Part shown: positions 14,343-50,298 of the stretch, piece after piece | How the letters are laid out: the number at the start of each line of letters is the position of its first letter | How positions within the stretch are numbered: position 1 is the first letter of the stretch | Assembly: GCA_945865885.1 (NCBI GenBank) | Contig: CAMBEZ010000003.1 | Span: 1-64,000 of the forward strand | DNA length: 64,000 nt | Reading direction: 5' to 3' | Origin: Owenweeksia hongkongensis DSM 17368 | Lineage (GTDB): Bacteria; Bacteroidota; Bacteroidia; Flavobacteriales; Schleiferiaceae | Translations under genes and position numbers: made by a program | The notes under the pieces: model-generated | What the model was told of the DNA's origin: nothing | Seen by the model: the letters and a program-made list of their open reading frames with translations, nothing else | The model's database searches: none

Positions 14343-14361
14343 CAAAAGTACGTTACCTTTG
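14343..14361. promoter_or_regulatory. Back-to-back divergent -7 boxes, lipoprotein / panB
   Basis: CAAAAGTA-cgt-TACCTTTG: the minus-strand TACTTTTG (14343-14350) and plus-strand TACCTTTG (14354-14361) are only 3 bp apart. They end 5 nt and 4 nt from the start codons at 14337 and 14366. Both are perfect TAnnTTTG. Simultaneous RNA polymerase occupancy seems sterically impossible. Confidence 0.75.
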
Positions 14362-20896: not shown

Positions 20897-20922
20897 CAAA
20901 AGTACGCCTTCTCCTACCTTTG
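20897..20922. promoter_or_regulatory. Divergent -7 boxes, lipoprotein / TauE-like transporter
   Basis: Minus-strand TACTTTTG (20897-20904) and plus-strand TACCTTTG (20915-20922), 10 bp apart. They end 5 nt and 4 nt from the start codons at 20891 and 20927. Both are perfect and both predict leaderless transcripts. Confidence 0.72.
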
Positions 20923-29658: not shown

Positions 29659-30186
29659 TTATCGTTTAGGGATTGATTGAACTCGAGCTCTTTTTTGCCA
29701 TTCCGGCAGCACTTGCCATACGGCATTGTCCGACGCCGCTAAAAACCGCAAATCCTCCGCTTGTTTCGCAAGGGGATGGTTGGGGTAGGTATCCAAAAAT
29801 AGCGTGTAAGCGCGGCCTGCCAAGGCCCGATTGCCCACAACTTCGTCAAATGTCAAGGCCATGGAAAACAAGGCCAGTGCCCCTTCCGGGCGATCCGAAT
29901 ACCTACGGTAGACGGTGTCGTACTGAGCAATAGCGAACAGCGCTCGTCCGGGCCGATTGCGTTCCAAGTCCCCTGCCATCAAGGCGTACCGCGGGGCCAG
30001 GGTATCCTCCGGATTCTCTGCTGCGAAGGTTTGAAAAGTTTCCGCTGCACGCGCCACCAAGGCCGTATCTTCTTCGATGGTTTCCAGTTGGCGCACTTGG
30101 GCCTCCAAGGATTGCAATTCTTCCACCGGATCGGTGCAACCCCAAACCGCGGCGAGCACAATGCACCCCAACACAAATGCCCTCAT
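29659..30186 (-). CDS. TPR-like lipoprotein
   Basis: 175 aa. Lipoprotein signal MRAFVLGCIVLAAVWGC, a short coiled coil (EELQSLEAQVRQLETIEED) and then helical pairs that look like tetratricopeptide repeats (LVARAAETFQTFAAENPEDTL, ALFAIAQYDTVYRRYSDRPEGAL, RAYTLFLDTYPNHPLAKQAEDL), as in outer-membrane assembly lipoproteins. Function unknown. The start at 30186 overlaps the def stop; a longer in-frame extension is inside def and is rejected. Confidence 0.8.
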   Translation of the reverse strand: MRAFVLGCIVLAAVWGCTDPVEELQSLEAQVRQLETIEEDTALVARAAETFQTFAAENPEDTLAPRYALMAGDLERNRPGRALFAIAQYDTVYRRYSDRPEGALALFSMALTFDEVVGNRALAGRAYTLFLDTYPNHPLAKQAEDLRFLAASDNAVWQVLPEWQKRARVQSIPKR

Positions 30187-30761
30187 CGGGCCTGAGGAAA
30201 TTTCATGCGGTACCCCACTTGAATCAATCCTTTGGCAATAGTACCCAAACGCCCCTGAAGCAAGCGCTTGCGCAGCGCCGAAAGTCGGTCCGTGAACAGA
30301 ACTCCTTCGATGTGGTCGTACTCGTGCTGAAAAATACGTGCGGCCAATCCGTCCAACTGCATTTCTTCCCAAGAACCGTCCAGCAGTTGATGCTTGAAGC
30401 GAACCACCGGCTTGCGGTGCACGGTTTCGTGAACGTCCGGGATGCTCAAGCAACCTTCCTCAAATCCCCACAACTCGCCCGACTCTTCCAAAACCTCTGG
30501 GTTGAAAAAAGCACGCTTAAACGCTTTAATGACTTCCTCTTGCGCGGCATTTTCTGCGTCTTCCGCAAACGGACTTCCGTCCACCACAAAAAGCCGAACG
30601 CTCAAGCCTACCTGAGGAGCCGCCAAACCCACCCCTTTAGCGTTGTACATGGTTTCAAAAAGGTTCTCCACGAGCGCGGGCAAGGCCGGATCTGCTAAGT
30701 CTACCGGTGCGGCGCGGCGCTTCAAAACGGGGTCTCCGTAGGCTACAATGGGCAGTACCAT
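30183..30761 (-). CDS. def: Peptide deformylase
   Basis: Removes the formyl group from nascent proteins. 192 aa. All three motifs are intact: GVGLAAPQVG, EEGCLSIP (metal Cys) and FQHEYDHIEGVLF (HExxH, written HEYDH). It starts MVLPIVAYGDPVLKRRA. ATG 30761 was chosen because a perfect TACCTTTG ends 4 nt upstream; the longer open frame to 30989 runs over ruvX. It shares a 27-bp divergent control region with ruvX. Confidence 0.97.
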   Translation of the reverse strand: MVLPIVAYGDPVLKRRAAPVDLADPALPALVENLFETMYNAKGVGLAAPQVGLSVRLFVVDGSPFAEDAENAAQEEVIKAFKRAFFNPEVLEESGELWGFEEGCLSIPDVHETVHRKPVVRFKHQLLDGSWEEMQLDGLAARIFQHEYDHIEGVLFTDRLSALRKRLLQGRLGTIAKGLIQVGYRMKFPQAR

Positions 30762-30765
30762 GCCG

Positions 30766-30784
30766 CAAAGGTACGCTATCTTTG
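30766..30784. promoter_or_regulatory. Back-to-back divergent -7 boxes, def / ruvX
   Basis: CAAAGGTA-cgc-TATCTTTG: minus-strand TACCTTTG (30766-30773) and plus-strand TATCTTTG (30777-30784), 3 bp apart. Each ends exactly 4 nt from its start codon (30761 and 30789). Same geometry as 14343-14361. Confidence 0.78.
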
Positions 30785-30788
30785 GCGG

Positions 30789-31205
30789 ATGAGTATTTGG
30801 ATTGGGATAGACCCGGGCGGAGCCCGAACCGGATTGGCGGAGAGCGACGCCACAGCGTCCATGGCCTTTCCGTGGACCACCGTCCCCTCCCAGCAGGTAG
30901 TAGAGGTGTTGAAAAAGAGGCATGCCTTGGAGCCTTTGGCAGGATTCGTGGTGGGTACACCGCACCGGTGGGACGGCAGTCCTACGCACGGCACCCCCTT
31001 AGCAGACCAGATGGCGGGCGCTCTCCAAGCCGCCTTCCCAGAACTTCCGGTTCACCGGATATCGGAGCAGTTCACCTCCAAAATTGCCTCCCGCGCAGCG
31101 CATGCAGCAGGAGCCTCCAAGCGCGTCAAAAAGGACAAGGGCCTATTGGATGCTGCGTCGGCATCGGTATTGCTGCAGGATTTTCTGAGCAACCGGCCGG
31201 CTTGA
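30789..31205 (+). CDS. ruvX: Putative Holliday junction resolvase / pre-16S rRNA nuclease YqgF
   Basis: 138 aa RNase H-fold protein of typical length. IWIGIDPGGARTGLAESD holds the first catalytic Asp, FVVGTPHRWDGSPTH replaces the usual VGLP, VHRISEQFTSKIA has the Glu, and KKDKGLLDAASASVLLQDFL the final Asp. YqgF proteins process the 5' end of 16S rRNA; the resolvase role is historical. The start at 30789 is fixed by the -7 box 4 nt upstream. dapD follows with its own promoter. Confidence 0.92.
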   Translation: MSIWIGIDPGGARTGLAESDATASMAFPWTTVPSQQVVEVLKKRHALEPLAGFVVGTPHRWDGSPTHGTPLADQMAGALQAAFPELPVHRISEQFTSKIASRAAHAAGASKRVKKDKGLLDAASASVLLQDFLSNRPA

Positions 31206-31232
31206 TCCGCGTAGGGTCGCAAGCGAAAAACG

Positions 31233-31240
31233 TACCTTTG
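31233..31240 (+). promoter_or_regulatory. -7 element TACCTTTG of dapD
   Basis: Perfect match ending 4 nt (TGTC) before the ATG at 31245; leaderless transcript predicted. Confidence 0.75.
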
Positions 31241-31244
31241 TGTC

Positions 31245-32066
31245 ATGCACTACCAATCCGCACAACCCCTCATAGAAGCTGCCTGGGAAGATCGGTCGCT
31301 CTTGTCCCAATCGGAAACCCGCTTGGCGATTGAATCGGTTATTGAAGCACTGGACTCCGGCATACTTCGGGTGGCTGAACCTTCGGAGCGCGGGTGGCGA
31401 GTTAACGATTGGGTAAAAAAAGCAGTCATCCTGTACTTTCCCATCCGGTCCATGGAAACCTTGGAAGCCGGGCCCTTGGAATTTCACGACAAAATGGCCC
31501 TGAAGCGCAACTACGCAGACCTCAACGTACGGGTGGTACCGCATGCGGTGGCGCGCTACGGTGCCTACTTGGCACCTGGTGTCATCTTGATGCCCAGCTA
31601 CGTGAACATTGGTGCTTACGTGGGCGCCAACACCATGGTGGACACCTGGGCAACGGTGGGATCCTGCGCACAAATTGGTGCCAACGTACACCTTTCCGGG
31701 GGCGTGGGCATTGGTGGTGTTTTGGAACCCGTTCAAGCAGCTCCGGTGATCGTTGAAGACGGTTGCTTCATTGGCTCGCGTTGCATTGTGGTGGAGGGTG
31801 TTCGCGTGGAACGCGAAGCCGTCTTGGGCGCCAACGTGGTCCTAACCGCCTCCACGCGGATCATCGACGTTACCGGCTCAGAACCGATTGAATACAAAGG
31901 CGTAGTACCCGCTCGTAGCGTGGTCATTCCGGGCAGTTTGCCCAAAGAATTTGGCGCAGGTACCTACCACGTTCCGTGCGCACTGATTATTGGCCAACGC
32001 AAAGCATCCACGGACTTGAAAACCAGCCTGAACGATGCCTTGCGCCACTACGACGTTGCCGTCTGA
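31245..32066 (+). CDS. dapD: 2,3,4,5-tetrahydropyridine-2,6-dicarboxylate N-succinyltransferase (DapD)
   Basis: Succinylates tetrahydrodipicolinate in the succinylase branch of lysine/diaminopimelate synthesis. 273 aa. An N-terminal helical domain (to ~100) leads to a left-handed beta-helix of hexapeptide repeats (VRVVPHAVARYGAYLAPGVI ... NIGAYVGANTMVDTWATVGS, ARIGANVHLSGGVGIGGVLEP-like region, EDGCFIGSRCIVVEGVRVE), the hallmark of the family. The length agrees with E. coli DapD. Feeds peptidoglycan together with murB. Confidence 0.97.
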   Translation: MHYQSAQPLIEAAWEDRSLLSQSETRLAIESVIEALDSGILRVAEPSERGWRVNDWVKKAVILYFPIRSMETLEAGPLEFHDKMALKRNYADLNVRVVPHAVARYGAYLAPGVILMPSYVNIGAYVGANTMVDTWATVGSCAQIGANVHLSGGVGIGGVLEPVQAAPVIVEDGCFIGSRCIVVEGVRVEREAVLGANVVLTASTRIIDVTGSEPIEYKGVVPARSVVIPGSLPKEFGAGTYHVPCALIIGQRKASTDLKTSLNDALRHYDVAV

Positions 32067-36138: not shown

Positions 36139-37299
36139 GTGGAACGTCCCAATAAATCCCCCTATTCCGCTGTGCGAAAGCGCTGGAATCCGGCGCAGCT
36201 GCCCTGGAAAGGTCTTTGGCGCTGCGCGGCGTATCCGGTGGCTGGATTGTACGGTGTTGGGATTTTGGCGCACCGGATGTGGACCGTTGGCACCTTCGCC
36301 CTCGTAAAACTTTTTGGATTTGGAGCTCCCGTTCCGAAGGTCAAGAGCATCGGCATTGGTAATGTGCACGTGGGCGGTACCGGAAAAACCCCCTTGGCGC
36401 TGTGGCTGCTGCGCGCGCTGGAAGCACGCCATCCGGGCGAAAAATGGGGGTACCTCAGCCGCGGTTACGGCCGGGATTCCAGCGGATGGCAACGGGTCGC
36501 TGCGGATTCAATGCCCCAAGATTCGGGCGACGAAGCTTTGTTGGTGGCGCACCAATCCCCAAACACCCCAGTGGGCGTATGCGCAGACCGGCGCGAAGGA
36601 CTGCGCCAACTGGGTCAACTGGGCTGCACGGGAGTGGTACTGGACGACGTGCTCCAGCACCGACGGGTTCGGCCGCAAGCCCTGATTGTGGCTTGTCCGT
36701 GGGACCGACCTTGGGATGAGGAGGCGCTGCTTCCTTTGGGCACCTTGCGTGATTTTGTGGGCAGTGTGCGCCGAGCGCAGGCCGTGGTGGTTACCGGTAC
36801 ACCGGAAGGCACAACCGGGGCCGACTGGAGCGAACGGGCCGCGCGCCTGCGGCGCGCGGCCTCCCTCCCCGCTACGTGCCCCATCTACTTCACCCGGTGG
36901 AAGTACGGAACCCTACGGCCTTGGGATCCCACCGCCGAAGTACCGCTGCCCAATAAGGTGGTGTGCGTCAGCGGGATCGCCCAACCGGAACGGTTTGCAA
37001 ATGCCGTGGCGCAACAACATACCGTGGTCAACGAATTGCGCTTTTCGGACCACGCCCAGCTCCCGTTGGAAGCACTCTTGGATGCCGCCGCTGAATCAGC
37101 AACCTGCGATTTGGTGCTTACCGCCAAAGACGCAGCCCGTATGCGCCAAACTTGGTCCCAAGGGGTACCCGCCCAGCAACTTTGTGCCGCCGGAATACAG
37201 CTCTGGATTTTGCCTGTGGAATTGACCTTCTTGGCCGGACCCGACGGCGGAGAAGCGGACGCATTGGCGTACCTTTGCGCCCATGTCGGACTTTCCTAA
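36139..37299 (+). CDS. lpxK: Tetraacyldisaccharide 4'-kinase (LpxK)
   Basis: Phosphorylates the lipid A disaccharide at the 4' position at the inner membrane. 386 aa from the GTG used here. An N-terminal membrane-associated helix (AAYPVAGLYGVGILAHRMW) precedes IGIGNVHVGGTGKTPLALWLL with the P-loop, LSRGYGR, DSGDEALLVAH and VVLDDVLQHRRV (family: DDGfQHr). The start is uncertain: a perfect TAATTTTG at 36092-36099 (sharing its TAA with the miaA stop) implies transcription begins near 36104, and the first in-frame start codon after that is GTG 36139. A TTG at 36097 lies inside the box. Confidence 0.92.
   Translation: MERPNKSPYSAVRKRWNPAQLPWKGLWRCAAYPVAGLYGVGILAHRMWTVGTFALVKLFGFGAPVPKVKSIGIGNVHVGGTGKTPLALWLLRALEARHPGEKWGYLSRGYGRDSSGWQRVAADSMPQDSGDEALLVAHQSPNTPVGVCADRREGLRQLGQLGCTGVVLDDVLQHRRVRPQALIVACPWDRPWDEEALLPLGTLRDFVGSVRRAQAVVVTGTPEGTTGADWSERAARLRRAASLPATCPIYFTRWKYGTLRPWDPTAEVPLPNKVVCVSGIAQPERFANAVAQQHTVVNELRFSDHAQLPLEALLDAAAESATCDLVLTAKDAARMRQTWSQGVPAQQLCAAGIQLWILPVELTFLAGPDGGEADALAYLCAHVGLS
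37270..37277 (+). promoter_or_regulatory. -7 element TACCTTTG of gatB
   Basis: Perfect box inside the 3' end of lpxK, ending 5 nt before the gatB ATG. Predicts an internal leaderless promoter in addition to read-through. Confidence 0.68.
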
Positions 37300-50234: not shown

Positions 50235-50242
50235 CAAAAGTA
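50235..50242 (-). promoter_or_regulatory. -7 element TACTTTTG of valS
   Basis: CAAAAGTA on the plus strand, ending 6 nt before the valS ATG. Predicts a leader of 0-2 nt. Confidence 0.7.
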
Positions 50243-50290
50243 CGCTTTGGCACCGTTTTTGAATGCACTTGTGGATGTTGTGCCAATGTG

Positions 50291-50298
50291 TACATTTG
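50291..50298 (+). promoter_or_regulatory. -7 element TACATTTG of the DUF1573 gene
   Basis: Perfect TAnnTTTG, 35 nt before the ATG at 50334. A TTG-rich stretch (TTGTGGATGTTG) lies about 12-25 nt upstream as a possible -33 region. The leader is very A-rich (AAAAAATTAAAATC), as in well-translated Bacteroidota mRNAs lacking a Shine-Dalgarno. Confidence 0.7.

Follow-up and report, generated by a model that had tools for sequence, protein, structure and literature searches.

A compact divergent pair of putative core promoters between def and ruvX

The 27-bp gap between the start codons of def and ruvX is very probably a compact divergent pair of core promoters for the primary sigma factor of the Bacteroidota, from which both genes would be expressed as leaderless mRNAs and which would have arisen by compaction in the lineage. 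The gap lies in the window, the whole stretch of 64,000 nucleotides analysed here. At 30762-30788 it reads CAAAGGTA-cgc-TATCTTTG, each box standing 4 nt from its ATG. The preliminary description had given this same geometry (two boxes, a 3-bp spacer, 4 nt on each side and 27 bp in all), and the sequence matches it exactly.

The boxes of the def/ruvX gap

The features of the locus are as follows.

30183..30761, - strand: def, peptide deformylase, 192 aa, ATG at 30761 (Pfam Pep_deformylase, 1.3e-47)
30759-30761, - strand: start codon of def (CAT)
30762-30765: GCCG, from the def start codon to its box
30766-30773, - strand: putative -7 box of the def promoter, CAAAGGTA (TACCTTTG on the - strand); exact TAnnTTTG, 4 nt from the ATG, identical in congeners
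30774-30776: spacer cgc, 3 bp, between the boxes; identical in the congeners G001 and G002, 11 bp in the sister genus
30777-30784, + strand: putative -7 box of the ruvX promoter, TATCTTTG; exact TAnnTTTG, 4 nt from the ATG, conserved in congeners
30785-30788: GCGG, from the box to the ruvX ATG
30789..31205, + strand: ruvX, Holliday junction resolvase homologue, 138 aa (Pfam RuvX, 3.1e-23)

Which polymerase might use these boxes? The -7 element of primary-sigma promoters in Flavobacterium johnsoniae is TAnnTTTG, 4-5 nt from the start site, and is accompanied by a weak -33 element (PMC6847099); in Bacteroidota primary-sigma (sigma-ABfr) promoters the -33 motif is weak or absent (PMC6847099, PMC7366714). 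At def/ruvX the element TAnnTTTG occurs exactly on both strands, and the 4-nt gap to each ATG matches the F. johnsoniae distance. By eye, no -33 TTTG element precedes either box, and no -33 motif emerged from 80 aligned promoters of the source-genome sample; such an element, weak in F. johnsoniae too, is not a strict requirement. The genome contains one RpoD-type sigma factor (a single PF00140 match), a 287-aa ORF with a short N-terminus ahead of region 1.2. That N-terminus, as judged by its length, fits a short RpoD-type sigma lacking region 1.1. Of the same 80 promoters, 60% have a G immediately before the leaderless box and just 2% an A, and this G is the sole clear upstream signal. The leaderless boxes are mostly TAC(C/T)TTTG which, with the preceding G, apparently constitutes a lineage-specific extended -7 element.

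Since the boxes match the primary-sigma -7 element, and since the 4-nt gap equals the distance published for Flavobacterium (4-5 nt), both the def and the ruvX mRNAs should be leaderless. By analogy with F. johnsoniae, the ruvX +1 is predicted at the A of its ATG. Each promoter would then consist essentially of the -7 box TAnnTTTG alone, with no recognisable -33 element, and transcription would begin at the A of each ATG, so that the starts of def and ruvX would lie about 28 bp apart on opposite strands. Judging from the size of the polymerase footprint, the two footprints would overlap, and only one polymerase could occupy the site at a time. In the bidirectional promoters of E. coli such competition makes a difference only if one of the two sides is strongly active (PMC12825309); the same limit likely applies by analogy to def/ruvX.

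Abundance and conservation of back-to-back boxes

How often do two such boxes stand back to back? Across the source genome (1.81 Mb, 51 contigs) we counted the pattern CAAANNTAN{0,14}TANNTTTG and compared it with a backward-pattern control. Spacers of 0-14 bp were found at 26 sites versus 2 in the control, and spacers of 15-45 bp at 21 versus 3, the short ones being about 2.5-fold denser per bp. From the density of boxes one expects about 0.1 pair per spacer length genome-wide, or 1.5 for the range 0-14 bp. A start codon lies 3-9 nt from both boxes at 15 of the 26 short-spacer sites. Two congeners gave similar counts (26 vs 4 and 24 vs 1 in the control). In a census of 60 genomes from the family, the source genus (g1) and g12 show a clear excess and g6 a weaker one, most of the others being near the control. 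We conclude that the back-to-back boxes are non-random.

Two further pairs in the window had been described previously, and both are present as described.

14343..14361: second back-to-back site, CAAAAGTA-cgt-TACCTTTG, 3-bp spacer, between a 349-aa gene (- strand) and panB (+ strand)
20897..20922: third site, CAAAAGTA-N10-TACCTTTG, between a 115-aa ORF (- strand) and a TauE/SafE-like gene (+ strand)

The 'weaker' pair reported at corA/GT2 was not identified in the window.

The pairs are strongly conserved. For 15 of the short pairs an orthologous site can be recognised in the congener G001, and an exact box pair is present there in all 15, a retention that is inflated inasmuch as some G001 contigs were chosen for carrying a box pair; three pairs on G001 contigs fetched irrespective of box pairs were also retained. 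At eight of the orthologous sites the flanking proteins average 66% identity, while fourfold-degenerate sites are only 30% identical, that is, saturated. The variable nn positions of the boxes are identical at 53 of 60 positions, as against 43 of 73 spacer bases in pairs of equal length (p 2e-4). Because their identity of 59% exceeds the 30% of the saturated fourfold sites, the spacers are not fully free either. At def/ruvX itself, box, spacer and box are identical at 19 of 19 positions in both G001 and G002.

The def protein is 95% identical to that of a Flavobacteriales MAG, 72% to that of a MAG labelled Owenweeksia hongkongensis and 66% to that of Cryomorphaceae BACL7; going by such named relatives, the family is probably Schleiferiaceae-like. 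In about 14 of the relatives compared, the two genes are codirectional, with ruvX immediately upstream of def. The two genes are divergent in the source genus, with a 3-bp spacer, and in g12 and BACL7, with one of 11 bp. This distribution, set against the codirectional order of most other relatives, indicates that the genes probably became divergent in an ancestor common to the source genus, g12 and BACL7, the spacing differing among them. The ruvX promoter of BACL7 and g12 is of the leaderless type (4 nt), and def has a leader of 15 nt there; this state is possibly an intermediate stage of leader loss.

Spacing and symmetry of the paired boxes

Is a spacing of 3 bp special? The preliminary description took its recurrence at two unrelated loci for a preferred architecture, and one could suppose that a 3-bp module sets the helical phase, or the coupling, of the two polymerases. 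Two of the three window sites do have 3-bp spacers, and all four 3-bp sites of the genome, that at panB among them, are still 3 bp long in G001 despite changes of base (ctc to gca, acc to gag). The distribution of lengths argues otherwise. The 26 genome sites have spacers of 2, 3, 4, 5, 7, 8, 10, 12, 13 and 14 bp, with counts of 2, 4, 2, 4, 1, 4, 3, 2, 1 and 3, respectively, so that 3, 5 and 8 bp are tied. The probability of four or more sites at 3 bp is 0.135, and that of any length reaching four is 0.94. For periods of 10-11 bp there is no signal of helical phase (Rayleigh p 0.35-0.43 in the genome, 0.60-0.72 with G001 added). Two of three sites would share one spacer length about 32% of the time under the genome's own distribution, which makes the coincidence in the window an ordinary one. 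Spacers of 0 or 1 bp are absent from the source genome, and this may mark a physical minimum, although the numbers are small.

Nor do orthologous sites hold their lengths fixed. Length is kept in 12 of the 15 short spacers and altered in three (14 to 12, 7 to 8 and 5 to 11 bp), as it is in three of five long pairs; the more frequent change in long pairs is what indels in proportion to length would produce. The longer the spacer, the less often its length is retained (8/9 at 5 bp or less, 2/5 at 15 bp or more), as random indels alone would predict, and def/ruvX itself has 11 bp in the sister genus. With neither an excess of one spacer length nor a helical phase, a 3-bp module is quite improbable, and the data do not support def/ruvX as a dedicated regulatory device of fixed 3-bp geometry. 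The earlier reading stands as to paired promoters, short-spacer enrichment and location between divergent genes; the preferred 3-bp spacer and the helical phase, which it had proposed to look for by counting spacer lengths, fall away.

Might the two genes instead share a single symmetric element that serves both directions, as in the bidirectional promoters of E. coli? There the element is one symmetric -10 whose two starts are separated by 10, 18 or 23 bp (PMC12825309), and the opposed -7 boxes of def/ruvX, with predicted starts 28 bp apart, have some resemblance to it. As in the bidirectional promoters of E. coli and other prokaryotes (Warman and colleagues), opposed promoters would here be too close for two polymerases to bind simultaneously. 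But def/ruvX has two complete -7 boxes, separate and non-overlapping, with a spacer that varies between sites, and no common symmetric core; the form in which the boxes share their TA, CAAANNTANNTTTG, is not enriched in the genome (4 vs 5 in the control). We consider a shared promoter of the E. coli type highly improbable. It is scarcely credible that CAAAG-N9-CTTTG is a palindromic operator for a dimeric regulator and not two promoters: the imperfect palindrome is indeed fully conserved in both congeners, but its half-site is the known -7 box, a single half occurs 4 nt before the ATG of many lone genes, and the spacing of half-sites ranges from 2 to 14 bp across 26 unrelated gene pairs, a variability that rules out any operator with fixed half-site spacing.

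On the favoured reading, two independent core promoters would have been brought together by compaction. Many genes of the lineage would have lost their leaders altogether while its divergent gaps became tight, so that two -7 boxes often come to stand back to back; leaderless starts and tight divergent gaps in a compact genome lead to just this arrangement. No functional link between def and ruvX is obvious, so compaction explains their pairing better than co-regulation does.

Leaderless starts in the lineage

How general would such leaderless starts be? We compiled gene-start statistics for about 36% of the genome, a 651-kb sample (the window, L016-L035 and L092-L101), using a simple gene caller that called starts independently of the box and miscalled some of them, so that the counts are approximate. 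An ATG exactly 4 nt past a box was counted 38 times, as compared with 6 for the backward pattern (88 vs 16 genome-wide). At the heads of transcription units the box lies 3-8 nt from the start in 37 cases, 9-14 nt in none, 15-40 nt in 41 and 41-70 nt in 15. The distribution is thus bimodal, with nothing at 9-14 nt, which looks like avoidance of very short leaders. The leaderless type makes up about 40% of the exact boxes at unit heads in the sample. With roughly half of the gene-head exact boxes lying 15-40 nt upstream, leaderless starts appear, on sequence grounds, to be a large minority and not the rule.

The corresponding counts at 3-8, 9-14 and 15-40 nt are 29/1/23 in a congener, 20/2/26 in g12 and 6/2/20 in the large-genome relative G005. 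Median divergent gaps are 106, 74 and 109 bp in the source genome, congener and g12, respectively, as opposed to 302 bp in G005. Short divergent gaps of the def/ruvX kind are common in the small-genome lineage.

Among the Bacteroidota studied, leaderless mRNAs amount to 5.5% in F. psychrophilum, and leaders under 10 nt to about 3.7% in B. thetaiotaomicron; the average leader is 33 nt in F. johnsoniae, and leaders in the species studied are mostly longer than 10 nt. In a 2011 survey based on a Pribnow-type search, just one Bacteroidetes/Chlorobi genome of 37 yielded leaderless genes (PMC3160421). RNA mapping in Bacteroides and Flavobacterium puts leaderless mRNAs at 4-6%; the share of unit-head exact boxes that abut an ATG here is about 40%. 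A core promoter that abuts the ORF and yields a leaderless mRNA has a counterpart in Deinococcus-Thermus, where the -10 region is adjacent to ORFs (PMC12340547), although the sigma consensus and the phylum are different; the words 'divergent' and 'bidirectional' do not appear in that paper.

The 3-bp spacing is in itself unimportant. It is the setting, the leaderless fraction, that may matter, being less ordinary. Whether the streamlined aquatic Flavobacteriales lineage (g1 and g12) has come to express a large part of its genes without leaders, from minimal promoters that have only a -7 box, is in our judgement evenly balanced. If it has, recruitment of ribosomes to a 5'-terminal AUG would rank among the main routes in a phylum with supposedly almost no leaderless mRNAs, and polymerases that exclude one another would serve dozens of divergent pairs. 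Should RNA mapping confirm the starts, the box could serve as an anchor for annotating gene starts in aquatic MAGs of the clade, and the clade as a test case for streamlining that removes leaders and brings opposed promoters together.

Other boxes of the window touch on the same subject. Just past the ruvX stop codon, in a 39-bp gap (31206-31247 with the start codon), dapD (ATG 31245) has its own box at 31233-31240, TACCTTTG-tgtc-ATG, which gives the ruvX strand a second promoter of the leaderless type. Another divergent pair, at 50235-50298, has a 48-bp spacer between TACTTTTG (- strand) and TACATTTG (+ strand). At 37270-37285 the box of a 482-aa gene, TACCTTTG-cgccc-ATG, falls within the 3' end of an upstream ORF that overlaps the gene, from which it follows that a leaderless-type promoter can occur within coding sequence.
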